Source: Vallitalea pronyensis (GTDB taxonomy: Bacteria > Bacillota > Clostridia > Lachnospirales > Vallitaleaceae). From it: a stretch of 64,000 nucleotides of DNA. Below are positions 2 to 63,282 of this stretch, piece after piece. Each line of letters opens with the position of its first letter. Positions within the stretch are counted from its first letter, which is position 1. The stretch is taken from positions 4,669,001 through 4,733,000 of the forward strand of contig NZ_CP058649.1 in assembly GCF_018141445.1 (NCBI RefSeq), in the 5' to 3' direction. A model generated the notes under the pieces. The model saw nothing but the letters and a program-made list of their open reading frames with translations, made no database searches and had not been told where the DNA came from. Position numbers and translations under genes: made by a program.

Positions 2-559
2 TGTATTGTCAACATTATCATACTCATCTATTTACCTTTTATGATCGTTCAGAATCAGTACCTCTTTCTTAACAAAGACCATACGTCTTCATTAATCTTT
101 ATTTTATGTGTTATCTTTTTTATGACCATATTAAACTTTTTGATTTTAGCCTATCAGATTAATAGTTATGATAATAATCATGGAAATGTGCCTACTACTT
201 TTAGACGTCCTTTTTTCAAGATATTATGTATCTTCTTTTTATATCTATCCTTGCTTTTTTCAGTCATTGATTCGTTTGCCTTGCTGTATGTACATTTAAG
301 TAATGTATTCAATGAAGGCATTGTAGGAAAAGGTGAAGTTTTTAGTCATTTAGATGCTTTGTATTTTAGTACAACCACTTTCTTTACCATTGGTTTTGGT
401 GATATTCGTCCTATTGAATACTCGGAAGTGACGAAAAAGTTAGTCATCATACAGGCAGCCTTGAGCCACATCATCACAACGGTTTTATGGCCTGTTGCCA
501 TTATCTTTGTCTTTGGTAAAACATCTCGAAAATTATTTGGTATTCATAAGAAAGATTAG
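2..559 (+). CDS. Two-transmembrane potassium-type ion channel, 5' end outside window
   Basis: Probable potassium-selective membrane channel. The frame is open to the left edge: codons before the first ATG (position 41) encode a hydrophobic run (IVNIIILIYLPF) that continues into the protein, so the true start is probably outside the window. Two or three hydrophobic segments follow. Between the last two is the pore loop TTFFTIGFGDIRP, and TIGFGD is the classic K+ selectivity filter signature. The final residues are charged and cytoplasmic, with no regulatory RCK domain. Its stop overlaps the convergent stop of the next gene by 4 bases. The filter is clear; the exact ion and gating are inferred. 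Confidence 0.85.
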   Translation, partial: CIVNIIILIYLPFMIVQNQYLFLNKDHTSSLIFILCVIFFMTILNFLILAYQINSYDNNHGNVPTTFRRPFFKILCIFFLYLSLLFSVIDSFALLYVHLSNVFNEGIVGKGEVFSHLDALYFSTTTFFTIGFGDIRPIEYSEVTKKLVIIQAALSHIITTVLWPVAIIFVFGKTSRKLFGIHKKD

Positions 560-1311
560 TTTTTTAGGCACAGGTATTCCTTCAGATGTGTTAAGACAGC
601 AACAACCATTATAACTAAACCAGCAATGATTGTTATGCTGATAGGTGTATTATGCCCTAGATGCTTCACTAGAATGCCAACCAGCCCCCATATGGCTGTT
701 AGCATAAAAGCCAAATCATTGTTGGTCATGGATACATATAAGGCTAATAGCAAAGCAAAAACAATTACGATACACGTCCACACCGTATCCGACAGACCTA
801 ACCCGTTCCATCCTGTCCACTGAAGCACCACGGCAACATTAGCAATGGTTGCAATGCATATCCAGGATAAATAGATACTAAAAGGTATATTAATCCAACG
901 TCTATCACTTTTTTTCACACTGCAGGTATCTCCTAATACCTTATAGATTCGAATAAGTGTCCATAATAAAAGCAGCATAATGGCTAAAGATAACCAGAGT
1001 TTTTCATATTGCCACGCCACCAGCCATAAACCATTCAGTAAGCATGATATGAGAAACTTATAGCCAATAGCATGTATATAACCATTTTTCTTTTGGTCTG
1101 GCATTAATCCATAAATGACAAATCCTAATAACAACAGATAGATAAGTCCCCATATCATGAAGGTGTACGATGCAGGTGTAAAAAGAGTCCTGTATTGATC
1201 GGATATGTCGCCAGTTGTTTTGCCATGAAACGTGAAAGTGGAAGCAAGTATATTAACCAGTATCATGAAGCAGTAACCCATTAAGTTAATTCGGCCATAA
1301 TGTGTACGCAT
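556..1311 (-). CDS. Tryptophan-rich sensory (TspO/MBR-like) membrane protein
   Basis: Integral membrane protein of 251 residues with about seven hydrophobic segments. The N-terminal stretch LFTPASYTFMIWGLIYLLLL and scattered Trp residues match the long Firmicutes proteins annotated as tryptophan-rich sensory protein, relatives of TspO/MBR. These are longer than the classic 160-residue five-helix TspO. The ligand is unknown; porphyrin binding is known for true TspO but is not shown here. The gene stands alone and is convergent with the channel gene. A GGGATG stretch precedes the ATG as a modest ribosome site. Confidence 0.7.
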   Translation of the reverse strand: MRTHYGRINLMGYCFMILVNILASTFTFHGKTTGDISDQYRTLFTPASYTFMIWGLIYLLLLGFVIYGLMPDQKKNGYIHAIGYKFLISCLLNGLWLVAWQYEKLWLSLAIMLLLLWTLIRIYKVLGDTCSVKKSDRRWINIPFSIYLSWICIATIANVAVVLQWTGWNGLGLSDTVWTCIVIVFALLLALYVSMTNNDLAFMLTAIWGLVGILVKHLGHNTPISITIIAGLVIMVVAVLTHLKEYLCLKN

Positions 1312-1483
1312 CTTATCGCATCCCTTACTCTTTTATTATATAAGCTTAATAAAGCGTGGATTGTACAAGAACAAGTTCAGTATATATATATGTAAGATAA
1401 GATGTTTTCATGCTTTATTTATCATTGATAACCAGGTTATTACATTCTAAGACACATAGGACCTTTTTTCTTATTCAACACAT

Positions 1484-2170
1484 TTAGCTTGCTAAGTACA
1501 TACGTACTAATCCAAGAATCAACAAATGACCAGGATAGAATAGATAGAATAAATAACGCATACTCTTGCCCTTTTTGCCATTATAAAAATAGATAAAGCC
1601 TAAACTGATGATGGCAAACAGTTGAACAAACATACGAATGTCTATGGTGGTATTACCTAAGAAGCCTAGACCCACGAATAAAGCTGTCATACCTCCAAAA
1701 CTAATGGCTTGCTTTTGGAAATGACCTCGATAATGGTAGAAGAAAAATATAGTCATGATACCATATATGGCATAATCCATTTCGGCTAACCCACTGATAA
1801 AACCAATGAGTAGAACGATAACTAAACCTATTTTTTTATTTTTTATGTGATGGTAAAGATGGATAACAAGTAGCCCTAAGAATAAGGTAAAAAAGATATT
1901 TAAGCTACCAAAACCAACATCAACACCTTGTGCCATATCATAAGGAATCTCCGATATAAAAGCAAATATTAATAATCTTGCTAAATATTTATGGATATGG
2001 CGGGTATGGAAAAACCCCTCGGCAATGAGATAGGCAAATATTGGAAAAGCCATTCTTCCAATAATACGCATCACCACATGAGCTGTGGTACTTTCATCAA
2101 CAAATACCATCGCATAATGGTCAATGAACATGGTTATACATGCAATGACCTTCAACCCTGTTGCTGTCAT
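1484..2170 (-). CDS. TraX family membrane protein
   Basis: Polytopic membrane protein of about 228 residues. The N-terminus LKVIACITMFIDHYAMVF, followed by RIIGRMAFPIFAYLIAEGF and the ISEIPYDMA motif, is characteristic of the TraX family. That family is named after the F-plasmid pilin acetylase but is widespread on chromosomes. I place the start at the ATG reading MTATGLK because AAGGAG lies nine bases before it; the longer frame from 2203 begins upstream of that ribosome site. There are no conjugation genes nearby, so a transfer role is unlikely. A general acyltransferase-like role is only inference. Confidence 0.75.
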   Translation of the reverse strand: MTATGLKVIACITMFIDHYAMVFVDESTTAHVVMRIIGRMAFPIFAYLIAEGFFHTRHIHKYLARLLIFAFISEIPYDMAQGVDVGFGSLNIFFTLFLGLLVIHLYHHIKNKKIGLVIVLLIGFISGLAEMDYAIYGIMTIFFFYHYRGHFQKQAISFGGMTALFVGLGFLGNTTIDIRMFVQLFAIISLGFIYFYNGKKGKSMRYLFYLFYPGHLLILGLVRMYLAS

Positions 2171-2438
2171 TTGATTCATCTCCTTATTAAATTCTTGCCC
2201 CATCCATTTATACAGTATAATAGTATAACATAACGTATACTATAACACTACCAATATATACAATTCTAATCATTATCTAATTAACACCCATCATGATATA
2301 GGTAATCGACGCATATCACGGTCATAATTACTTGCTTATGGCTTGTAAAGATATGATGGGAGTGTTACAATATAACCATTAAATTCTAATAGCATTCAAA
2401 ATAAAAAGAAAATATAAGGTGTGAAAGGAGTCATTTGC

Positions 2439-3662
2439 ATGAACGTAAGTGAAAGATTTCTAAAGTATGTTAAGGTATGGACCACGTCTGATGAAGCATC
2501 CCAGACTAGCCCTAGTACAGAGAGACAATTGGACTTGGCACATATACTTGTTGAAGAGTTAAAAGACATTGGATTAACGGATATAACCCTTGATGAAAAT
2601 GGATACGTCATGGCTACATTAGAAGCCAATACGGATAAAGATGTACCAACCATTGGATTTATATCCCATATGGATACATCACCTGATATGTCTGGAAAAG
2701 ATATAAAACCTCGTATTATCAAAAATTATAAAGGTAATGATATTGTTCTTAACGAATCCCTGAATATTATCTTATCACCTGATGATTTTTCCTCGCTAAA
2801 AAACTATGTAGGATTGGATTTGATCGTTACAGATGGTACCACTTTGCTTGGTGCTGATGATAAAGCCGGTATTGCAGAAATTATCACGGCTATGGACTAT
2901 CTGATTCAGAATCCTGAAATTAAGCATGGTAAAATAAGAATTGCTTTTACACCTGATGAAGAAGTCGGTAGTGGCACCGACAAATTTGATGTGGAGAAAT
3001 TCAATGCAGATTTTGGTTATACCATTGATGGTGGTGAAATTGGTGAATTGGAGTATGAAAATTTCAATGCAGCCAACGCTTGGTTAACCATTAACGGCAA
3101 AAACATTCACCCAGGCTCAGCTAAAAATAAAATGTTAAGCGCTATGGAAATCAGTTTTGAGCTGGATTATATGTTGCCTCCAGAACAAAGATGCCAATAC
3201 ACGGAAGATTATGAAGGCTTCTATCATCTCGTTCGCATGGCAGGTAATGTTGAACAGGTAAAGAGCATGTATATTATTCGTGATCATGATCTGGACAAAT
3301 ATGAGCAGAAAAAAACCTACTTCCAACGTGTCATCCGTTACCTGAATGAAAAATATGGTGAAGGTACCGTTGATTTAAAATTAAAGGATATGTATTATAA
3401 CATGAAAGAAAAGATAGAACCTGTTATGCACATCATTGATACTGCTGTAGAAGCCATGAATTCTCTTGATATTGAACCTATTATTGTTCCTATTCGGGGT
3501 GGAACAGATGGCTCCAGGTTATCTTACATGGGATTACCTTGTCCTAACTTATTTACTGGCGGTCATAACTTCCATGGAAAACACGAATACATCTGCATTC
3601 AATCCATGGAAAAATCCGTGCAAACCATTGTGAAAATCATTGATCTATATGCGAGCAAATAA
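2439..3662 (+). CDS. pepT: Peptidase T (tripeptide aminopeptidase)
   Basis: Cytosolic M20-family zinc aminopeptidase that releases the N-terminal residue from tripeptides. The start is the ATG reading MNVSERFLKYV, with AAGGAG eight bases upstream, giving 407 residues, the usual PepT length. Metal and catalytic motifs are visible: SHMDTSPD (about residues 76-83), GADDKAG (about 138-144) with the bridging Asp, and DEEVGSG (about 173-179) with the general-base Glu. The C-terminal segment GGTDGSRLS...FTGGHNFHGKHE holds the last metal-binding His region. It is monocistronic and followed by a hairpin terminator. It fits the oligopeptide importer and PepF in the same window. Confidence 0.95.
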   Translation: MNVSERFLKYVKVWTTSDEASQTSPSTERQLDLAHILVEELKDIGLTDITLDENGYVMATLEANTDKDVPTIGFISHMDTSPDMSGKDIKPRIIKNYKGNDIVLNESLNIILSPDDFSSLKNYVGLDLIVTDGTTLLGADDKAGIAEIITAMDYLIQNPEIKHGKIRIAFTPDEEVGSGTDKFDVEKFNADFGYTIDGGEIGELEYENFNAANAWLTINGKNIHPGSAKNKMLSAMEISFELDYMLPPEQRCQYTEDYEGFYHLVRMAGNVEQVKSMYIIRDHDLDKYEQKKTYFQRVIRYLNEKYGEGTVDLKLKDMYYNMKEKIEPVMHIIDTAVEAMNSLDIEPIIVPIRGGTDGSRLSYMGLPCPNLFTGGHNFHGKHEYICIQSMEKSVQTIVKIIDLYASK

Positions 3663-3665
3663 TGG

Positions 3666-3712
3666 ATAAAAGATCGGTGCAAGGGTTTTGGGGAGCTCTT
3701 GCATCTTTTCTT
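3666..3712 (+). terminator. Rho-independent terminator after pepT
   Basis: Imperfect inverted repeat (AAAAGAT, GCAAG against CTTGC, ATCTTTT) directly after the pepT stop, ending in a T-rich tail. It is a plausible intrinsic terminator with a bulged stem. Confidence 0.6.
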
Positions 3713-3847
3713 ACAAAACTGTAAGGTTAATGGCCTATTTTGTCATCTAATAAAATGGATAATACACCTGTTCTATTATACAATAGTATTGTCAAAAAAT
3801 ATGCGATGATATTAAAATAGATGCATGATATCGGGGAGGCCTATAGT

Positions 3848-4504
3848 GTGAAGAATTTTTACAAAAAAATACTCTTTGTTACCATGGCATGTACCATCTT
3901 GTTCATGTCATACATACATTCATATACACCCAAACACGAAATCTATGATCTTAATGAAACGCTTATGCATCAGATAGAGTCTCATGTACCGGACTATGTT
4001 TCATTAGATGAGGTATCGCAAGACCTTATAAATGCCACTGTGGCTATGGAAGATAAGCGTTTTTATCGACATATAGGGTTTGACCCTATTGCTATTGTAC
4101 GAGCAGTTTTAGTGGACATACGTGAGCGGCGCTATGTTCAAGGTGGCAGCACCATTACTCAGCAGCTTGCGAAAAACCTCTTTCTGAATCATAAGAAATC
4201 ACTAAATAGAAAATTTCAGGAGTTAATCATTGCTTCCAAGCTGGAACAACTCTTCACAAAAGAAGAAATACTGGAGATGTACCTTAATGTGATTTATTAT
4301 GGTTCTGGTGCTTATGGTATTGGGGAAGCCTGTGAAATCTACTTTGATAAGACACCTGACGAGCTATCTCTTGAAGAAAGTGCCATGCTTGTAGGTATAC
4401 CGCCATCACCAAACCGCTACAATCCTATTCGTAATCTTGCAAAAGCAAAACAACGCCAGGAAGTTGTGTTATCCGTTATGGCTAAGAAAGGTTATCTTAA
4501 CTGA
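3848..4504 (+). CDS. Monofunctional peptidoglycan glycosyltransferase (GT51)
   Basis: Membrane-anchored transglycosylase that polymerises lipid II into glycan strands at the outer face of the membrane. GT51 motifs appear in order: ATVAMEDKRFYRHIGFD with the catalytic Glu at about residue 68, GGSTITQQLAKNLF, KLEQLFTKEEILEMYLN with the second Glu, and the SLEESAMLVGIPPSPNRYNP segment. One N-terminal membrane segment is followed by the enzyme domain and nothing else, so it lacks the transpeptidase domain of class A PBPs. I choose the GTG start because GGGGAGG lies eight bases before it; the in-frame ATG at 3821 is upstream of that site. About 218 residues. Confidence 0.9.
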   Translation: MKNFYKKILFVTMACTILFMSYIHSYTPKHEIYDLNETLMHQIESHVPDYVSLDEVSQDLINATVAMEDKRFYRHIGFDPIAIVRAVLVDIRERRYVQGGSTITQQLAKNLFLNHKKSLNRKFQELIIASKLEQLFTKEEILEMYLNVIYYGSGAYGIGEACEIYFDKTPDELSLEESAMLVGIPPSPNRYNPIRNLAKAKQRQEVVLSVMAKKGYLN

Positions 4505-4530
4505 ACAACAATCATGTGTTGTGACAATAA

Positions 4531-4592
4531 AGAAAAGGCTGACATCCATTGAATATGTACTAAGGAACTTTCAATAGATGAAGCCTTTTTTT
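4531..4592. terminator. Bidirectional terminator between convergent genes
   Basis: Inverted repeat with outer arms AAAAGGCT and AGCCTTTTTTT and an inner pair ATTGAA/TTCAAT, lying between the GT51 gene and the convergent adenosyltransferase gene. The T-run follows on the plus strand. Confidence 0.65.
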
Positions 4593-4612
4593 GATAACTG
4601 AATAGTTTAGCC

Positions 4613-5155
4613 CTAATAATCAATGCCTTTGATGGCTTGTCTGCCTGCTTGATAGTAGTGTTTCTCTTCATGACACACGGTGACTAAATCTGCATATTCT
4701 CGCAATGCATCTGGTGCACTACGGCCTGTTAAAATTATGTTTGTCCGTTCTGGTCTATCTTTAAAGCAATCCATACACATATCTGCTGTTAATACTTCAC
4801 GGTGATCAAATCGTTTAATACCAAAAACATTATTAATCTCATCCAAGATGACCACATCATAGGCATTACTCATGATTTTCTCTTTTGCTAATGCCCACGC
4901 TTCTCTAATCCCTTCTTTGTGAGCCTCTATTTCGTTTTTATTGGTAAACCCTTTGCCCATTTGATGCATCTCTATACCAAGCTGTTTGAAGGTTTCCCTC
5001 TCACCAATTACAATATCCGAAGATTTAATAAACTGTATAATACAGACATTCTGCCCATGCCCATATGCTCTTAGTGCAATACCAAAAGCCGCTGTACTCT
5101 TGCCTTTTCCATTACCTGTAAAACATAAAACTGCTCCTCTATTGTTACTTGCCAT
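4613..5155 (-). CDS. cobO: Corrinoid (cob(I)yrinic acid a,c-diamide) adenosyltransferase
   Basis: Cytosolic enzyme that transfers the adenosyl group of ATP to reduced corrinoid, forming adenosylcobalamin. The N-terminal P-loop FTGNGKGKSTAAFG and the downstream DVVILDEINNV and NIILTGR segments define the BtuR/CobO/CobP family, and the length of about 180 residues is typical. The ATG reading MASNNRG is chosen because AAGGAGG lies seven bases upstream. No other cobalamin genes are adjacent, so it probably acts in salvage. Symbol choice (cobO versus btuR or cobA) is naming only. Confidence 0.9.
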   Translation of the reverse strand: MASNNRGAVLCFTGNGKGKSTAAFGIALRAYGHGQNVCIIQFIKSSDIVIGERETFKQLGIEMHQMGKGFTNKNEIEAHKEGIREAWALAKEKIMSNAYDVVILDEINNVFGIKRFDHREVLTADMCMDCFKDRPERTNIILTGRSAPDALREYADLVTVCHEEKHYYQAGRQAIKGIDY

Positions 5156-5239
5156 GACATTTCCTCCTTCAAGATTAAAATCCATCCATACTTATTCTAC
5201 TAGATGTGACCTATAAAATAAAGAAGAAAATAAGAAGTT

Positions 5240-6682
5240 TTATAATATAATCTCAAAACAATTGTAGCCATTCTGGGTATATGCACGATAACTACCTTCA
5301 TGTAATTTCACAATACTTTTAACGATAGCAAGCCCAAGTCCATTCCCTCTATTCTCCGTATCAATCTGATAAAAGCTGTTCCATATCTGATCCAATTCCT
5401 TATCTGGTATGAGTACACCCGTATTGGCAATAAGAATCTTTAAACCTTGTGTTTGCTTAGACAATTCAATTTTAATGGTGCCATTATCATTGACATGTTT
5501 AAAGGCATTGCTCAGCAGATTGATGATGATCTGGCTGGTCCTTAATCGGTCAGCTGTTAACACATATTGTCTATGGGTATCATAATCAATGCGCACTGTT
5601 TTATTATCTGTCATGAAATGTAAGCGTTCCAAAGCGTTATCAATTAATTCGTTCACAATAAAAGGTTCCATATCAATGGTAAATGTACCGGATTCATAAC
5701 CTGATAGATCCAATAAATCCTTAACTAATGTATGCATTCTACTTGCTTCATCAACGATAATACTGTAATATTCTTCTTTTGCTTCCTCCGATTTGGGAAT
5801 TTTTTGTACAAGGCCATCTGCATAACCTAAAATCAAGCTAATGGGATTTTTAAGTTCGTGAGAAACATCTGAAACAAATCGACGTCGCATCTTCTCTAGA
5901 CTTTTTTCCTTGGATAACTCTCGTGTCAATTGATGATTACTAACTTTTAGGGCATGAATAGCTTCTGATAAGGCATCCGCCATCTGGTTAACACTATTCA
6001 TGAGTTCACCCACTTCATCGTAGCTTCTGACTATCAATTTTTCATCAAATTGTAAATCAGCCATTTTATAGGTTGTTTCTTTCATTTTAATAATGGGCTT
6101 ACTAACACCTTTAGCAATGATAAAGCTAATGATAATGCCTACAAGATATACGGCAATCGATGTCAGTAACATAAAACTATAGAACATCCCCGTTGCTTCT
6201 GAGACAAGTCCCATTCTTTTAACAATGAGTACAAGCTGTCCGTCTGCCATTGCCCTGGCATATATAATTCTCTGATCTTCTATATCACCAGAACCCAATA
6301 TTTCTAAGTGCCCTTCTTCAGCACTTTGGACTGCTTTATCTCTGATTATTTTTAAATGCTCAAGTTTAACCGGTGGCTTATTATGGCGACCACTTGCAGC
6401 CCGTACAGGAAATAGTTCCTCTGGAAAAAGAAAAACGTCGCCTCCTGTTCTCTTTACAAGTTCAGCTATTTGCTCTTGGAATGCCTCTGGTTTATACTCT
6501 GTTTCAAACTCTCTTGAGGCTTTAATCATATTATTAGAATTAGATTTAATATAAAAATCATCTAAAAAAAATTTATTCAATAACAACAGCAACAACAGCA
6601 ATATAAAAAAAGTCATTGAAAATACCAATATTATTTTTGTACGAATGGATTTAATCTTCTTCAAACTCAAGTCTATAGCCAA
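5240..6682 (-). CDS. Sensor histidine kinase of an OmpR-type two-component system
   Basis: Membrane histidine kinase of about 480 residues. An N-terminal membrane helix (about 15-35), an extracellular domain of roughly 110 residues and a second helix (about 160-190) lead into a HAMP linker. The phosphoacceptor motif FVSDVSHELKNPISLILGY and a HATPase domain with N-box NLLSNAFKH and G-box GNGLGLAIVKSI follow. The frame starts at a TTG that overlaps the regulator gene by 32 bases. Other in-frame TTG codons at 6670 and 6664 are also possible starts, and there is no ATG before residue 24. It pairs with the adjacent regulator; the signal is unknown. Confidence 0.9.
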   Translation of the reverse strand: MAIDLSLKKIKSIRTKIILVFSMTFFILLLLLLLLNKFFLDDFYIKSNSNNMIKASREFETEYKPEAFQEQIAELVKRTGGDVFLFPEELFPVRAASGRHNKPPVKLEHLKIIRDKAVQSAEEGHLEILGSGDIEDQRIIYARAMADGQLVLIVKRMGLVSEATGMFYSFMLLTSIAVYLVGIIISFIIAKGVSKPIIKMKETTYKMADLQFDEKLIVRSYDEVGELMNSVNQMADALSEAIHALKVSNHQLTRELSKEKSLEKMRRRFVSDVSHELKNPISLILGYADGLVQKIPKSEEAKEEYYSIIVDEASRMHTLVKDLLDLSGYESGTFTIDMEPFIVNELIDNALERLHFMTDNKTVRIDYDTHRQYVLTADRLRTSQIIINLLSNAFKHVNDNGTIKIELSKQTQGLKILIANTGVLIPDKELDQIWNSFYQIDTENRGNGLGLAIVKSIVKLHEGSYRAYTQNGYNCFEIIL

Positions 6683-7322
6683 CTCCTCTTACTGTTTTAA
6701 TGATGCTGCTATATTTACCCAATTTAGCTCGTAATGTCTTTACATGTGTATCCACAGTCCTTGGGTCACCGTAATAATCGTAACCCCATATGCGATCCAA
6801 TAGCTTCGTACGCTCTATGGTCATGTTCTTATTCTTCATTAAATATTGCAGTATAGCAAACTCTTTCGGTGTCAACTCTTTATTGAAACCATCAATTTTC
6901 ACTTCATGTTTGGAAAAATTAACAGCCATCGCCTTATAAATTGTTGGTTGAGAGGTATGCTTAGAGTGCTTACGAAGACATGATTTTACCCTTGCCATAA
7001 GAACCTTATAATTGAAAGGCTTGGTGATATAATCATCTGCTCCAATCTCCAAACCTTTGACTTCATCAAAACTATCATCTAGAGCAGTAAGAAAGATGAC
7101 GGGTGCCTCTGTGATTTCCTTGATTTCCTTCAGTGCCTCAAAACCATCCATTTTTGGCATACGCACATCTAATAAAATTAAAGCAATATCCTTATGCTTA
7201 ATAAGTTGCTCAATGCCGTGAATGCCATTTTCCCCATAAACCACGTCGTACCCTTCGTGCCTTAAATAGTCACCAATAATTCTTCGGACATTTTTCTCAT
7301 CATCAATGACCATAATCTTCAT
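6651..7322 (-). CDS. OmpR/PhoB-family response regulator
   Basis: DNA-binding response regulator of 223 residues. The receiver domain has the acidic pair VIDDE, the phosphoacceptor Asp at about residue 52 (LILLDVRMPKMDG) and the switch Lys in DDYITKPF. The C-terminal winged helix contains LTPKEFAILQYLMKN and the recognition segment RTVDTHVKTLRAKLGK. The start ATG follows a strong AGGAGG. It is cotranscribed with the overlapping kinase gene and lies 57 bases after the DUF1566 gene, so the three may form one unit. Confidence 0.93.
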   Translation of the reverse strand: MKIMVIDDEKNVRRIIGDYLRHEGYDVVYGENGIHGIEQLIKHKDIALILLDVRMPKMDGFEALKEIKEITEAPVIFLTALDDSFDEVKGLEIGADDYITKPFNYKVLMARVKSCLRKHSKHTSQPTIYKAMAVNFSKHEVKIDGFNKELTPKEFAILQYLMKNKNMTIERTKLLDRIWGYDYYGDPRTVDTHVKTLRAKLGKYSSIIKTVRGVGYRLEFEED

Positions 7323-58374: not shown

Positions 58375-59046
58375 TTATGACAATGCCATTTTTTTCAACT
58401 GCTTAAAGACGTCCGTAACCTGTGGCACCATCAGGATAATAAGGGTTAAGAATATTTCTCCAGCAATATAGGCAAGATTATAACCGATTGAATAAGGTAC
58501 CGGGTCAAATCCTAAATCAATGGCATAACTTTGAAAGAAAACAACCCCTGCAATAAAATGACATAAAAATCGACCAAATGCTCCAAGAATAAGACCTTTC
58601 ATTAACCCATTTGGCGTGTTACGCATAAGTCCAGCAAATCCAAGCATACCAAAAGCTAATGGATAATCCAGCAATAATTGTATGGGATGCATGACCCAGC
58701 CGCCAAGGGCAAGTTGTAGCAATCCATATGTCATACCGCAAATTATACCTTGTACCGTTCCAAACCAATAACCGATAACAGCTATAAAAAGCATGCTAAA
58801 CAGTGTAATGGAACCACCCTGAGGTAAGGTTACAAGTTTCACATAGGACAACGCTACAGCTATTGCGATGGCAATTGCAGAATACACTAACTCTTTTGTT
58901 TTCATGGATCGAGAACGACTACCTAAAGCCACAACAGCTATTAAAAGAATAAGGGCAATTGCAACTAAAATAATCTGACCTAGTGTAGATGTAATGATAC
59001 CTTGGATATCGCCACTTGCAATAGCGTCTTGAAATTGTTTTAACAT
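58375..59046 (-). CDS. thiT: Thiamine ECF transporter S component ThiT
   Basis: 223 residues, with an extra N-terminal helix and then the six-helix ThiT domain. ThiT-typical stretches are TKELVYSAIAIAIAVALSYVKL, GGSITLFSMLFIAVIGYWFG and GLLQLALGGWVMHPIQLLLDYPLAFG, the last carrying thiamine-binding residues. It works with a shared ECF energy module encoded elsewhere. A TPP riboswitch upstream confirms the substrate. Confidence 0.93.
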   Translation of the reverse strand: MLKQFQDAIASGDIQGIITSTLGQIILVAIALILLIAVVALGSRSRSMKTKELVYSAIAIAIAVALSYVKLVTLPQGGSITLFSMLFIAVIGYWFGTVQGIICGMTYGLLQLALGGWVMHPIQLLLDYPLAFGMLGFAGLMRNTPNGLMKGLILGAFGRFLCHFIAGVVFFQSYAIDLGFDPVPYSIGYNLAYIAGEIFLTLIILMVPQVTDVFKQLKKMALS

Positions 59047-59052
59047 GAAAAA

Positions 59053-59077
59053 ATCCTCCTTAAAATCTAGGAGGGAT
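59053..59077 (-). promoter_or_regulatory. Shine-Dalgarno-sequestering hairpin of the thiT riboswitch
   Basis: On the minus strand ATCCCTCCT pairs with AGGAGGAT, which is the thiT ribosome site, and TTTTTT follows. Formation of this stem would hide the site and may also terminate transcription. It is the probable expression platform. Confidence 0.7.
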
Positions 59078-59112
59078 CATGGAGTTTGAAAGCATACTGT
59101 ATGTATTACTTA

Positions 59113-59196
59113 ACGCTTCCCTTCGTCGGCATTATCCGAATCAGGTTATAAGGGTCAGTACTTTACTTTCTCAGCCCAAGGCTCCCCTAGCACATA
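59113..59196 (-). promoter_or_regulatory. TPP riboswitch (THI element)
   Basis: Minus strand shows the conserved aptamer parts in order: TAGGGGAGCC, GGGCTGAGA, ACCCTTATAACCTGAT, GGATAATGCC and GAAGGGAAGC. These match the thiamine pyrophosphate aptamer. It lies 67 bases upstream of thiT. Confidence 0.95.
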
Positions 59197-59247
59197 TTTT
59201 ATTTTCATACATAATGTATACCATTATGGTGGATTTGTCAAGTGGAC

Positions 59248-60114
59248 TTACATATCCAAATACTTCATTGTAAAATCCATCACTTTTTGCACATTATCAG
59301 CGTTAGTACTGTATGCTGAAGAATTGACGATTTTATTATGCTCATCAAAATATTTACCAGACACATCACTCACGTCATCTGAGGTAGCTAAATAGGTGTA
59401 TGTTCTTGCCATTTCCTCAGGGGTAATGGCTTTTTTACTTTTTAGAGCATATGCAAATTTTGCAAGTTTAGAAAGATGAGGATAGCGACTGATGTCCACT
59501 TTCACATTTGTTACCCGTATACAGTTAACTGTAACCTTTGTATCTTTTAATTTATCAGCAAGCCAATAGGTGTACATCACCTGAGCTATTTTAGATTGAT
59601 AATATGCTTTTGACACATTGAACTTCCGGCTCTGAAATTCTGGGTCTTTAAAATCAACGCTTATGGAGGGATGAACAATTAAACCCTTTGAAGCAATTGT
59701 AATAATTCGACCTTGGTTACTTCTTTTTATGGATTCCAATAGAAGTTCAGTTAATAATACAGCCCCAAGATGATTGGTCGCCCATATTTTTTCTATGCCT
59801 TCTTTGGTCATCACTGCCTTTTTTTGCGTAATATCAAATAGTGCTGCATTACTGATAAGTACGTCTAATGTATCGTACTTTGCTAGGAACCCAGTGACCA
59901 TCTTCCTAATGGAAGATTGCAAAGACATGTCAACAAGCATTAATTCAGCTGAATTGTTTTCATGTGATTGTTTCACTTCTTCCAAAGCCTTTTCTCCCTT
60001 TTGTTCATTTCTACAAGCCAGAATGACATGATAGCCTGCTTCTGCCATTTGAATAGCCGCAGCTTTACCAATACCTGAATTTGCTCCTGTAATTAAACAT
60101 ATTTTTTTATCCAT
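59248..60114 (-). CDS. Short-chain dehydrogenase (retinol dehydrogenase-like)
   Basis: About 288 residues. Cofactor motif LITGANSGIGKAAA, SNAAL, catalytic Ser in TIASKGL region and Tyr/Lys in YYQSK (about 171/175). The preference for ACRNEQKGEKA at the second strand suggests NADP. ATG 60114 (MDKKICL) is preferred because AGGAGG lies ten bases before it. It is the second gene after a membrane protein and probably belongs to the TetR-controlled unit. Confidence 0.9.
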   Translation of the reverse strand: MDKKICLITGANSGIGKAAAIQMAEAGYHVILACRNEQKGEKALEEVKQSHENNSAELMLVDMSLQSSIRKMVTGFLAKYDTLDVLISNAALFDITQKKAVMTKEGIEKIWATNHLGAVLLTELLLESIKRSNQGRIITIASKGLIVHPSISVDFKDPEFQSRKFNVSKAYYQSKIAQVMYTYWLADKLKDTKVTVNCIRVTNVKVDISRYPHLSKLAKFAYALKSKKAITPEEMARTYTYLATSDDVSDVSGKYFDEHNKIVNSSAYSTNADNVQKVMDFTMKYLDM

Positions 60115-60180
60115 ATTCTTCATGCCTCCTTATTGACAAAACCCATCTCTATTAGTGTGTACCAATGCCTTACTTACTAA

Positions 60181-60768
60181 TCAAGACTGCTTCTTTTTCT
60201 TTTCAAATTTTTTGTATGCGAAAGAAATGACGCCTATACAAATGAGTAAACCTATGATTGCAGGAATAAAAATGGATTGGCCGGATTCCCCTCCTTCAAC
60301 AACACTCCATATCATTTTTCCTACAGTCATAAACACCACAACAGATAAACCAATCCATAAACTCCGTTTCCACAATGCCATACCTAAAGCAATAAAAGAT
60401 ATTGGAATAATAAGTGTAACGAGAATTTTAGCTATCCCCCAGCTGCCCATCAGGTATTCCATTTCCATATCTAAAAATTGTTCCACTAATGCACTTGATG
60501 ATTCAGGCTCTGGGAACCAGAACATGCTAGTCATCAGTAAAAAAATAGTAACAGATATACCCGTCCAACTTCTTTTATAAGCAAAATAGCAGAATGGTAT
60601 TAAAAACAGGGGTCGGATATACCAGCTCAATTGATTGTGGTGACGTTCAAACGCCCAGTTAAAAAATGCATCATTTGTAGCGAATAAAATTAAGAATACC
60701 ACTGTCAGCAGTGCAAAAACCACCGCGAAAATCAAGTCATACTTTTTACGTTTTTTGTTTCCCATCAT
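60181..60768 (-). CDS. Membrane protein of unknown function, TetR-controlled
   Basis: About 195 residues with six hydrophobic segments and a basic tail. Not recognised. It starts behind AAAGGG (GTG, ATG and ATG in frame close together; the first ATG is chosen). Its promoter, with consensus -35 and -10 boxes, is followed by an operator shared with the tetR-type gene at 60976. The dehydrogenase follows 66 bases downstream. Confidence 0.65.
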   Translation of the reverse strand: MMGNKKRKKYDLIFAVVFALLTVVFLILFATNDAFFNWAFERHHNQLSWYIRPLFLIPFCYFAYKRSWTGISVTIFLLMTSMFWFPEPESSSALVEQFLDMEMEYLMGSWGIAKILVTLIIPISFIALGMALWKRSLWIGLSVVVFMTVGKMIWSVVEGGESGQSIFIPAIIGLLICIGVISFAYKKFEKKKKQS

Positions 60769-60828
60769 ACTCACCCTTTCAGATTATAACTAGCCATCTT
60801 ATTTACACTTTAACAAGGTTAAACTTTA

Positions 60829-60858
60829 TAAACCACTTGGTCTAGACCTTGTGGTTTA
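60829..60858. promoter_or_regulatory. TetR operator before the membrane protein gene
   Basis: TAAACCAC, TTGGTCTAGACCTT, GTGGTTTA: symmetric except for the two TT/TT pairs. The TAAACCAC/GTGGTTTA arms and 14-base spacing are the same as in the site at 61611-61652. Confidence 0.8.
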
Positions 60859-60859
60859 C

Positions 60860-60888
60860 ATTATAACATTACTGTTATTGACTGTCAA
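60860..60888 (-). promoter_or_regulatory. Promoter of the membrane protein/dehydrogenase unit
   Basis: Consensus TTGACA (60883-60888) and TATAAT (60860-60865) with a 17-base spacer, immediately upstream of the TetR operator. Confidence 0.85.
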
Positions 60889-60928
60889 CAAAGTTTCAAA
60901 TCTTTATGATAAAATATTTAAATACATA

Positions 60929-60953
60929 AAAAAACTACCAATCTGGTAGTTTT
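60929..60953 (-). terminator. Terminator of the tetR-type gene
   Basis: Perfect arms AAAACTACCA and TGGTAGTTTT with three-base loop ATC, and a TTTTTTT run on the minus strand. Confidence 0.85.
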
Positions 60954-60975
60954 ATATATTTAGGCTATATTTCTC

Positions 60976-61587
60976 TTATGATGTACCTAACCCATGCTTC
61001 ATAAAATCAACATAATTGTCTAGATTTTCAAGGGTCTCTTCTAATACCATCACCCCATCAGCATAAAATATGTCATCAAAATAAGTAAACATAAAGCTGA
61101 TTGTTTTGAGAATAAAATCTTTTGGAAAATTCGGCTTGAAATCACCTTTTTCTATACCTTCATTTATCATATCGTGCAGCTTATTAGTACCTATTTCCAA
61201 TCTTTCTTTGATGATATCAAAAATTTCGTTTCCCTTTTCTTTGACCAGCATCTTCGCTAACTTATGATACTTAGGATGTTCCATAGCAAATTCTACACCG
61301 ATTCTTGCCTGACATTTAAACCTCTCAAAAATATCCATTTTCTGAAAGCTTTCGTTTAAATCACGTGTTCGATGGTGTATAAACTCCCATTTCACATGAG
61401 AGGAATGCTCGATTAAGTATAGATATAAGTCTTGTTTATTTTTAAAATGATAATAAAAGGTTCCTTTGCTGATAGATGCATTTTTAATGATGCTATTTAA
61501 GGAAGCGTCATCATACTTATGGGATGAAAACTCATCTAAAGCTGATTGAAGCAATTGTGTTTTTCTCTCAAATGACTTTTCTTTCAT
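60976..61587 (-). CDS. TetR-family regulator
   Basis: About 203 residues. Helix-turn-helix HKYDDASLNSIIKNASISKGTFYYHFKNKQDLYLYLIEHS is complete; the C-terminal domain resembles clostridial AcrR-like members. The ATG reading MKEKSFER is used because the open frame extends 15 codons into its own operator. Identical-type operators before this gene and before the membrane protein gene indicate a local regulon. Confidence 0.88.
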   Translation of the reverse strand: MKEKSFERKTQLLQSALDEFSSHKYDDASLNSIIKNASISKGTFYYHFKNKQDLYLYLIEHSSHVKWEFIHHRTRDLNESFQKMDIFERFKCQARIGVEFAMEHPKYHKLAKMLVKEKGNEIFDIIKERLEIGTNKLHDMINEGIEKGDFKPNFPKDFILKTISFMFTYFDDIFYADGVMVLEETLENLDNYVDFMKHGLGTS

Positions 61588-61610
61588 TATAATCAATAGC
61601 CCCTTTCTTA

Positions 61611-61652
61611 TAATATAAACCACGTAGTCCATACTATGTGGTTTATATTATA
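61611..61652. promoter_or_regulatory. TetR autoregulatory operator
   Basis: Perfect 14-base arms ATAATATAAACCAC and GTGGTTTATATTAT with a 14-base spacer, overlapping the -10 box of the gene's own promoter. Confidence 0.85.
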
Positions 61653-61676
61653 AGACTATGTATATAGACTGTCAAT
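61648..61676 (-). promoter_or_regulatory. Promoter of the tetR-type gene
   Basis: Consensus TTGACA (61671-61676) and TATAAT (61648-61653), 17-base spacer; the -10 lies inside the operator arm. Confidence 0.85.
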
Positions 61677-61729
61677 GCGTAAGATACTTACTTATTAAGA
61701 ATAGAGTCAAATCAAATGCAGAGCATCCA

Positions 61730-62803
61730 TTAGCCCACAAGCTGAAGGTGCATCGTTACATACCCCTTTATGAGGTCAATGATTTCTTTATTAATGGTGT
61801 CATATTCATTGACATCGTACCAGCATATGGTTTTATGTTTTGTATCCATTCTTAATAAAGATGGTTTTAACAACCCTTTTTGATTATTACACCAACCACA
61901 TCCATTACATTGACCGCTTGTTTCATAAAAATCTTTTTGAACTGCTTTAGGCTGACGTTGAATGATGGGAACTATTCGGGATGTTGCAATAAATCTCAAT
62001 CTTATTTTTAGAGGGTTTACAGCTTTAAAATCAAACACAAATGCCATTAATGGGGATGTTTTTATTTCTTTTTTTGTGTAACGTATCTCAAAGTTTAATA
62101 CATGAGGCTCATAAACATAACGAATATCAAAGTCATTATCCTGCAACATCTTATGAAGTATGGACATATGATTGTAGGCTTTATCCTTGTATAGTTTCTG
62201 GAGTATTTCCTCTATACTAGGTTTATATTGGGTATCTAATGCTCCAAAATCACACATCCTAAAACACAATTCACCTGCTTCATGGATATTCTGACTACAT
62301 TTTAAGGCAAAGAGATGCAATGCTTCTATCATATCTGGTTGCTTATGGGTTGTTAGCCTTACACTATCACCATCTGCATCTATCTTTATCCCAAGTTCTA
62401 CTACAGCATCCAGTAGCTTTTTCTTTTGACGCTTGCCAGTTTTCATAAACTTATCCATAAATGCCTTATCACCTATGATGGTGTCATCTTTTAAACGCCC
62501 TTGTGATGCAACTTTATAGATTAAATCTAAACAATCCGATACAGGCTTTATTACTTTATCTTTCACACGCTTGAAGGGTTTACTTTTTGAATGAAACTCA
62601 CCAGAGTTAAAACTGACTTTGGGAAATGATTCCATACCCAATGCTTCTGGTTCCTTAAAAAGTGTCCCATAAAAGTCCCTAAAAAAGTTATGTAACGCCA
62701 TATAACCTGTACCCCTATTGCTATCTATATCTGATAGCAAGTTCAGATAATATGCCGCTGTTTGTTCATTGGCAAATCTTAAATCCCTTATCATTTGTTC
62801 CAT
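61730..62803 (-). CDS. Unknown cysteine-cluster protein linked to a J-domain protein
   Basis: 357 residues, not recognised. The N-terminal two-thirds are mixed helical and basic. The C-terminal third contains SGQCNGCGWCNNQKGLLKPS (about 308-327), four residues of a CxxCxxC-type cluster that could bind zinc or iron-sulfur, with a further Cys 20 residues later. It has no signal or membrane segment. AAGGAG precedes the ATG. It follows the J-domain gene by 38 bases, so the two are probably one unit and may form a chaperone-client pair (inference). Confidence 0.7.
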   Translation of the reverse strand: MEQMIRDLRFANEQTAAYYLNLLSDIDSNRGTGYMALHNFFRDFYGTLFKEPEALGMESFPKVSFNSGEFHSKSKPFKRVKDKVIKPVSDCLDLIYKVASQGRLKDDTIIGDKAFMDKFMKTGKRQKKKLLDAVVELGIKIDADGDSVRLTTHKQPDMIEALHLFALKCSQNIHEAGELCFRMCDFGALDTQYKPSIEEILQKLYKDKAYNHMSILHKMLQDNDFDIRYVYEPHVLNFEIRYTKKEIKTSPLMAFVFDFKAVNPLKIRLRFIATSRIVPIIQRQPKAVQKDFYETSGQCNGCGWCNNQKGLLKPSLLRMDTKHKTICWYDVNEYDTINKEIIDLIKGYVTMHLQLVG

Positions 62804-62841
62804 CCTATTTCTCCTTCCTATTTTTAGAGGAATACCTCATG

Positions 62842-63282
62842 TTAATCATGCGACTTTATTTGTTCATAGGCTTCTATCACTTTAATAAAATCCTGAGCAT
62901 CCCCTCCATTATCAGGATGATATTTTTTTGCTAAAACTCTAAACCTTTCCTTAATATCATCCAAATTTGCATCAGCAGGTAATCCAAAAGCTTTTAATAG
63001 ACTTGGGTCGTACATGTTTTTATAGGATAAACCATTCTCTTTATAATACTGATAATAAACTGAATAAAAAAAAGCGCTGAATACTTCTTTTCGTTCCTCA
63101 TGTCCCATTCTAGCTAATGTATCAAGATTAAATTGAACACTGTTGTCATCTAGGTCCTTCGTTGAGAAAAATTGATGCCATATAAGGGACATACTGTTGT
63201 TATCCTGTTTGTATGGAAATCGAATATGTTGCTCTTGTCTTTTTAACCTTCTTAGCTTTCGCTTTAATTCATTTATATCGAT
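62842..63282 (-). CDS. J-domain (DnaJ-like) co-chaperone, N-terminus uncertain
   Basis: The C-terminal J domain (about 45 residues) contains LDDIKERFRVLAKKYHPDNGGD with the Hsp70-stimulating HPD. The first ATG is at 63192 (116 residues), with only a weak AGGA site. The same frame continues without stop for 30 codons upstream and reads like protein, including NELKRKLRRLKRQEQHIRFP. It reaches a region with AAAAGGGG eight bases before an ATC codon (63280-63282) and a TAG above that. I therefore list the longer form with a non-canonical start; the shorter form is the fallback. Confidence 0.65.
   Translation of the reverse strand: MDINELKRKLRRLKRQEQHIRFPYKQDNNSMSLIWHQFFSTKDLDDNSVQFNLDTLARMGHEERKEVFSAFFYSVYYQYYKENGLSYKNMYDPSLLKAFGLPADANLDDIKERFRVLAKKYHPDNGGDAQDFIKVIEAYEQIKSHD

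Follow-up and report, generated by a model that had tools for sequence, protein, structure and literature searches.

A likely local, autorepressed TetR circuit in Vallitalea pronyensis with a recurrent membrane protein as its conserved partner

Two consensus promoters with matching operators in the Vallitalea pronyensis genome likely belong to a local, autorepressed TetR switch, in which a membrane protein (MP) is the conserved effector and a short-chain dehydrogenase is a lineage-specific helper. They were found in a stretch of 64,000 nucleotides (64 kb), hereafter the window. This reading draws on the promoters, the operators, the gene order, the conservation of the TetR-MP pair and the absence of further exact operator sites, as these appear in the DNA sequence.

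All three genes are on the minus strand. The first, tetR (60976-61587), encodes a TetR-family regulator of 203 aa (PF00440, 41.8 bits against a cut-off of 24, E = 8.9e-11). Its start was placed at ATG 61587 rather than at ATG 61632, inside the operator, as favored by the alignment of relatives. The gene of MP (60181-60768) belongs to no named family, and its start at ATG 60768 was inferred from a ribosome-binding site; the mechanical open reading frame starts at GTG 60774. The dehydrogenase gene (59248-60123; PF00106, 112.6 bits, 2.2e-32) follows 57 nt behind MP. The gene assignments of an earlier note on this DNA were correct: a TetR (PF00440), a protein without a Pfam match and a short-chain dehydrogenase (PF00106). 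A terminator-like hairpin with a 10-pair stem and a T tail lies 3′ of tetR (60931-60953, minus strand), and probably divides the locus into two transcription units, one with tetR alone and the other with MP and the dehydrogenase. No terminator-like site was found in the gap between the latter two, which are probably cotranscribed.

We scanned positions 58900-62900 for promoters. Nineteen promoter-like sites scored at least 9/12, compared with 18.6 expected by chance. The only two scoring 12/12 were the tetR promoter (61647-61675, minus strand; -35 at 61675, -10 ending at 61647) and the MP-dehydrogenase promoter (60860-60888, minus strand; -35 at 60888, -10 ending at 60860). Both are perfect TTGACA-17-TATAAT promoters with a spacer of 17, just as the earlier note had described them. 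The pair was also compared for a possible recent promoter duplication: 46 of 60 positions are identical with the motifs included and 18 of 32 outside them, and the flanks agree at 11/40 and 13/40 positions.

Some features of the neighborhood were noted as well. A TPP riboswitch (59101-59198, minus strand; RF00059, 77.8 bits) lies behind the dehydrogenase gene and precedes a ThiT-like thiamine transporter gene (58375-59046). At 61730-62803 (minus strand), a protein of 357 aa has no Pfam or PHROGs match and weak RecU-like matches far under the cut-off; it adjoins a DnaJ-domain protein at 62842-63192. Past the end of the window are two adjacent open reading frames (L050:11711-12843, minus strand), which, from their translations, are presumably an IS3-type transposase pair.

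Each promoter carries a 30-bp operator, operator A at 60829-60858 and operator B at 61616-61645. The matching operators of the earlier note were confirmed as perfect TAAACCAC-N14-GTGGTTTA palindromes with 0 mismatches. When up to 3 mismatches were allowed, 100 shuffled sequences gave 0.42 matches on average and four of them reached 2. The note had placed the operators behind or overlapping the promoters; they follow, in both cases from the second base past the -10. By this geometry, they should cover the transcription start. Operator B adjoins the -10 of tetR itself, an arrangement from which autoregulation is predicted.

In the 6.3-Mb genome, there are only two exact copies of the operator, both at this locus. 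The genome scan that had been proposed as a check thus returned no third exact copy, and the exact operator was absent from the other 390 of the 391 class genomes searched. With up to 3 mismatches, the genome gave 44 forward matches against 60 in a reversed control, which identifies the 44 as noise. A pattern for the 20-bp unit, based on the sites of the window and of its two relatives, matched the genome 19 times forward and 27 times in reverse at up to 2 mismatches, compared with 44 and 36 in the reversed control. The only matches of this unit with 0 mismatches were the left units of operators A and B, and one further match had 1 mismatch (G000:C1:280898). A wider regulon was therefore rejected, as the exact operator has two local sites only and the 20-bp unit does not rise above the control. 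Of the regulon proposed earlier, a TetR with two matching operators on strong promoters is well supported by the sequence, and a wide reach is not. With two exact copies alone in the genome, the circuit looks strictly local, consisting of an autorepressed TetR and one operon.

From its sequence, each operator is probably made of two 20-bp sites that overlap, being offset by 14 bp (60827-60846 and 60841-60860 in operator A, 61614-61633 and 61628-61647 in operator B). We built a matrix only from sites in the promoters of the two regulators closest to that of the window, at loci L046 (49% identical) and L047 (41%). The four half-units of the window ranked 1-4 in the 64 kb, with scores of 20.2, 16.6, 15.6 and 11.9, and the next best score was 10.0. 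Ranks 1 and 3 belonged to operator A, and ranks 2 and 4 to operator B. In 20 random sequences, the maximum averaged 13.0 and was 17.3 at most, a value exceeded by the best unit only; the weaker units are therefore not significant alone. The four units kept ranks 1-4 when the matrix was made from L047 only and when the four central bases were masked. With L046 alone, they ranked 1, 2, 3 and 9, the ninth being the weak second unit of operator B. The L046 and L047 sites were picked by eye once the window motif was known, a circularity that is limited, not removed, by a random-palindrome control in which 1 of 500 palindromes did anything similar. Since the four half-units top the ranking of the whole 64 kb, the 30-bp operator is most simply read as two overlapping 20-bp sites. 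The long-spacer palindrome that was first described is thus right in its exact arms and better divided into two units.

By analogy with QacR, we infer two dimers per operator. It is also conceivable that each operator is the site of a single dimer, which contacts only the arms TAAACCAC and GTGGTTTA and leaves the 14 central bases as a spacer. The arms are indeed perfect and identical in both operators, and the central bases are not the same in A and B. However, in the relatives the sites are 20-bp units with N4 centers, to which the inner halves of operators A and B correspond, most clearly in A. In addition, the arm centers are about 22 bp apart, which is far for one TetR dimer. We therefore regard the single-dimer site as unlikely and retain the reading of two overlapping sites.

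The model of the regulator (pLDDT 85) had its nearest folds in TM1030 (one entry with octanol), FadR, DarR, MtrR and QacR. Several of the listed fold entries contain octanol, stearoyl-CoA, steroids or cationic dyes, and others uracil or c-di-AMP; our guess of a lipophilic inducer was drawn from these ligands solely. Among the matches listed, all NCBIfam equivalogs were far under their cut-offs, the best being MtrR (53.2 against 280 bits) and FadR (35.5 against 200). The regulator might be of the FadR type, responding to fatty acids or acyl-CoA and tuning the membrane to its lipid state, not to a foreign compound. FadR structures, one with stearoyl-CoA, are among its nearest folds and sequences. 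Nevertheless, MtrR, QacR and TM1030 score alike, the operator is unique and local, and the operon contains no fatty-acid pathway. Moreover, MP is patchy: among 59 relatives, the window genome included, 3 have it, and it was found in none of the five other genomes of the genus searched. There is, in our judgment, only a small chance that the regulator is of this kind, and we keep the reading of a local switch released by a specific compound. A search for further close regulators found none beyond L046 and L047, either among 58 genomes in the family of G526 or in the single genome in that of G035; across the order (295 genomes), the same two and the window's own regulator were all that turned up, and plasmids had none at 1e-15.

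The earlier description of MP as an unknown six-helix protein agrees with our results. Five strong hydropathy segments and a helix of the model at 49-66 indicate about six membrane helices, and the model is helical (pLDDT 91). Its invariant polar residues include R44, H45, N47, R54, E104 and K153 (numbered from the GTG). MP had no match to Pfam at E 1 and none to NCBIfam at 0.01; at E 1, NCBIfam gave weak matches to SMR (0.31) and FliF (0.08), far under the cut-off. Stray weak matches were all that 15 MP members gave against Pfam and NCBIfam, and none of the curated efflux pump families (MFS, SMR, RND and ABC) matched MP. Compared with solved folds, the model had no Foldseek match at E 0.001 and a best Z of 4.7 over 292 chains. 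PHROGs, PADLOC and PDB sequences gave nothing useful on its function. A literature search by locus tag and keyword, in which the Cthe_ tags may be wrong and few of the subscription journals were covered, found no paper on MP. With no family model or assigned function found, MP is apparently undescribed.

We found relatives of MP in 2 further genomes of 59 and at 15 loci in a species-genome collection, in which the search reaches close relatives only. A TetR homologue is present in 12 of the 17 MP loci, always upstream and on the same strand. The gap is within about 35 nt in 11 of the 12 and 256 nt in L023. This Anaerocolumna gap (L023:3738-3995) holds a long inverted repeat seen by eye, perhaps a small inserted element. 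The loci without TetR were L012, L019, L024, L026 (MP at a contig edge) and L027. A search of 398 genomes across the phylum yielded two more loci, L052 and L053, with no TetR match within 1.5 kb, and a Cytobacillus plasmid copy of MP has an annotated TetR 18 nt upstream. In total, 13 of 20 MP loci have an adjacent TetR and none was detected in seven, one of them at a contig edge; L054, a weak 63-residue match, was kept out of the count. The MP of L025 has an internal stop.

The pairing was also seen from the side of the regulator. A TetR matching that of L017 at 1e-25 or better occurred in 28 of 386 class genomes. All 14 TetRs at least 67% identical to L017's have an MP sequence directly downstream, 13 of them at 16-30 nt, although MP is cut by the contig end in L074 and reduced to a C-terminal remnant in L076. 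Three of these 14 loci are L017, L018 and L028 again. Among the more distant TetRs from this search, only one of 14 (L088) has MP. Judging from these neighborhoods, MP is the conserved target of the TetR module. The recurrence of relatives of the pair in distant spore-forming bacteria points to an inducible membrane function. The distant TetRs (L078-L091) are 28-38% identical to L017's, and most have TGAC-N-GTCA-like sites upstream.

The dehydrogenase does not share this conservation. Its translation contains TGANSGIG and YYQSK, which we take to be the TGxxxGIG and YxxxK motifs of classical short-chain dehydrogenases. No dehydrogenase was found in the operon of MP at any of the 17 tested loci of relatives, and L046 has no dehydrogenase match. 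Only L021 has dehydrogenase-like matches, in two nearby genes on the opposite strand. The dehydrogenase thus seems a local add-on. That it is instead the physiological target, with MP as a passenger of a metabolic rather than a membrane-stress operon, is very improbable: it shares the transcription unit of MP, two genes like it lie near L021, and in L047, whose regulator is of the window type, the place of MP behind it is taken by an alpha/beta hydrolase (L047:6693-7838, minus strand), but the recurrent neighbor of the regulator is MP, not the dehydrogenase.

Operators in or just behind strong promoters recur in the relatives, and 9 of 16 of the relatives' promoter regions have a 12/12 promoter. 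In the clostridial modules, the promoter has two ATATGACC-N4-GGTCATAT sites, one in the spacer between -35 and -10 and the other 32-33 bp further. By our own threshold for site calls, 11 of 14 close clostridial loci have both sites and two have one; L076 starts too near the contig edge. Metabacillus and Cytobacillus have two abutting TATGACA-N4-TGTCATA-like sites, 16 bp apart, which closely follow the -10 or the position where it probably lies. L046 and L047 have TATAGACC-N4-GGTCTATA-like sites inside 12/12 promoters. In L046, the regulator is divergent from MP, and a single site lies between the two genes, between -35 and -10. The presence of strong operator-bearing promoters in the window is thereby reinforced at the level of sequence. 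Matrices from the distant modules (17 clostridial sites, 23 with Bacilli, or all 25) failed on the window operators, whose units ranked from 51 to 7119.

The regulator and MP differ in their nearest kin. In the MP tree (19 rows), the MP of the window grouped with those of Metabacillus, Cytobacillus and L052 (96/93), and then with L046 (98/93). The TetR tree (20 rows) placed the regulator of the window with L046 and L047 (97/97), apart from those of Metabacillus, Cytobacillus and the clostridial modules, which grouped with a paralogue in the window genome (98/96). The window regulator is about 20-28% identical to module regulators other than L046 and L047. Several branches are long. L025 (internal stop), L026 and L027 (both partial) were left out of the MP alignment and tree, and the L030 and L031 paralogues out of alignment A2. 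Considering these different kin, it seems that one regulator took the place of another within an unchanged circuit design. We see about equal grounds for accepting and for doubting the broader proposal, namely that MP founds an undescribed Bacillota family under an adjacent autorepressing TetR, which was replaced at least once by one of another TetR subfamily with a different operator, with the design of consensus promoters and composite operators retained.

The repression, the kind of inducer and the action of MP were deduced as follows. When the inducer is missing, TetR dimers, probably two per operator, would occupy both composite operators downstream of the -10 and block RNA polymerase on the two consensus promoters. 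One promoter would serve the repressor, with transcription ended by its own hairpin, and the other MP and the dehydrogenase. Release of the repressor might then come from a small compound, probably a lipophilic one, so that MP would be made fast and in quantity. Large induction by a specific compound, as the earlier note predicted, is plausible. MP most likely would export the inducing compound or shield the membrane from it, although a transport role has no support from the fold or family searches, and the dehydrogenase may convert the compound. As a repressor-releasing compound should show the business of MP, the captive regulator is a direct handle on this protein. What began as two isolated palindromes is now a regulator-effector pair that recurs and follows a shared operator grammar, and nature seems to have run a rewiring experiment of its own by swapping the regulator. 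Circuits of this kind, in which a TetR represses itself and has a partner in the membrane, are known; of interest here are the composite operators, the apparent exchange of regulator and the partner protein, which recurs and is apparently undescribed.

Among known systems, regulators of the TM1030, FadR and MtrR type are the nearest in solved sequence and fold, with 16-21% identity to the window regulator in the fold alignment for the rows listed. The IR1 operator of QacR/qacA in S. aureus differs from the window operators in sequence and unit spacing. It resembles them in being a large inverted repeat in the promoter of a membrane-protein gene, under a TetR-type repressor of related fold. According to PMC3022030, QacR occupies this repeat as two dimers bound together. 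Its target is a named multidrug pump, whereas MP is no known pump.

One member of the TetR-MP pair has apparently already been bound in vitro, as far as the accessible part of PMC8457756 tells: TetR_0692 (Clo1313_0692) of C. thermocellum binds its own operator by DAP-seq and EMSA. The module TetR of genome G401, 78% identical to that of L017, is, judging by gene context, apparently TetR_0692 itself or the corresponding regulator of another C. thermocellum strain. The palindrome reported in that part of the paper is centered at -31 in G401, with a second site at -64. The divergent gene in G401 has Dockerin_1, GDSL lipase and carbohydrate-binding domains, and MP lies directly behind the regulator; the same part of PMC8457756 does not mention MP. 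Unlike in the window, the operator is of the TGACC type, with two sites about 33 bp apart, and the gene order puts the regulator and MP in one transcription unit. As the G401 regulator is 26% identical to that of the window, its binding bears on the module, and on the window member by kinship only. So far as the accessible text allows the comparison, in both systems a TetR appears to regulate itself through paired operators in the consensus promoter of its own gene, and in G401, too, MP is the next gene.
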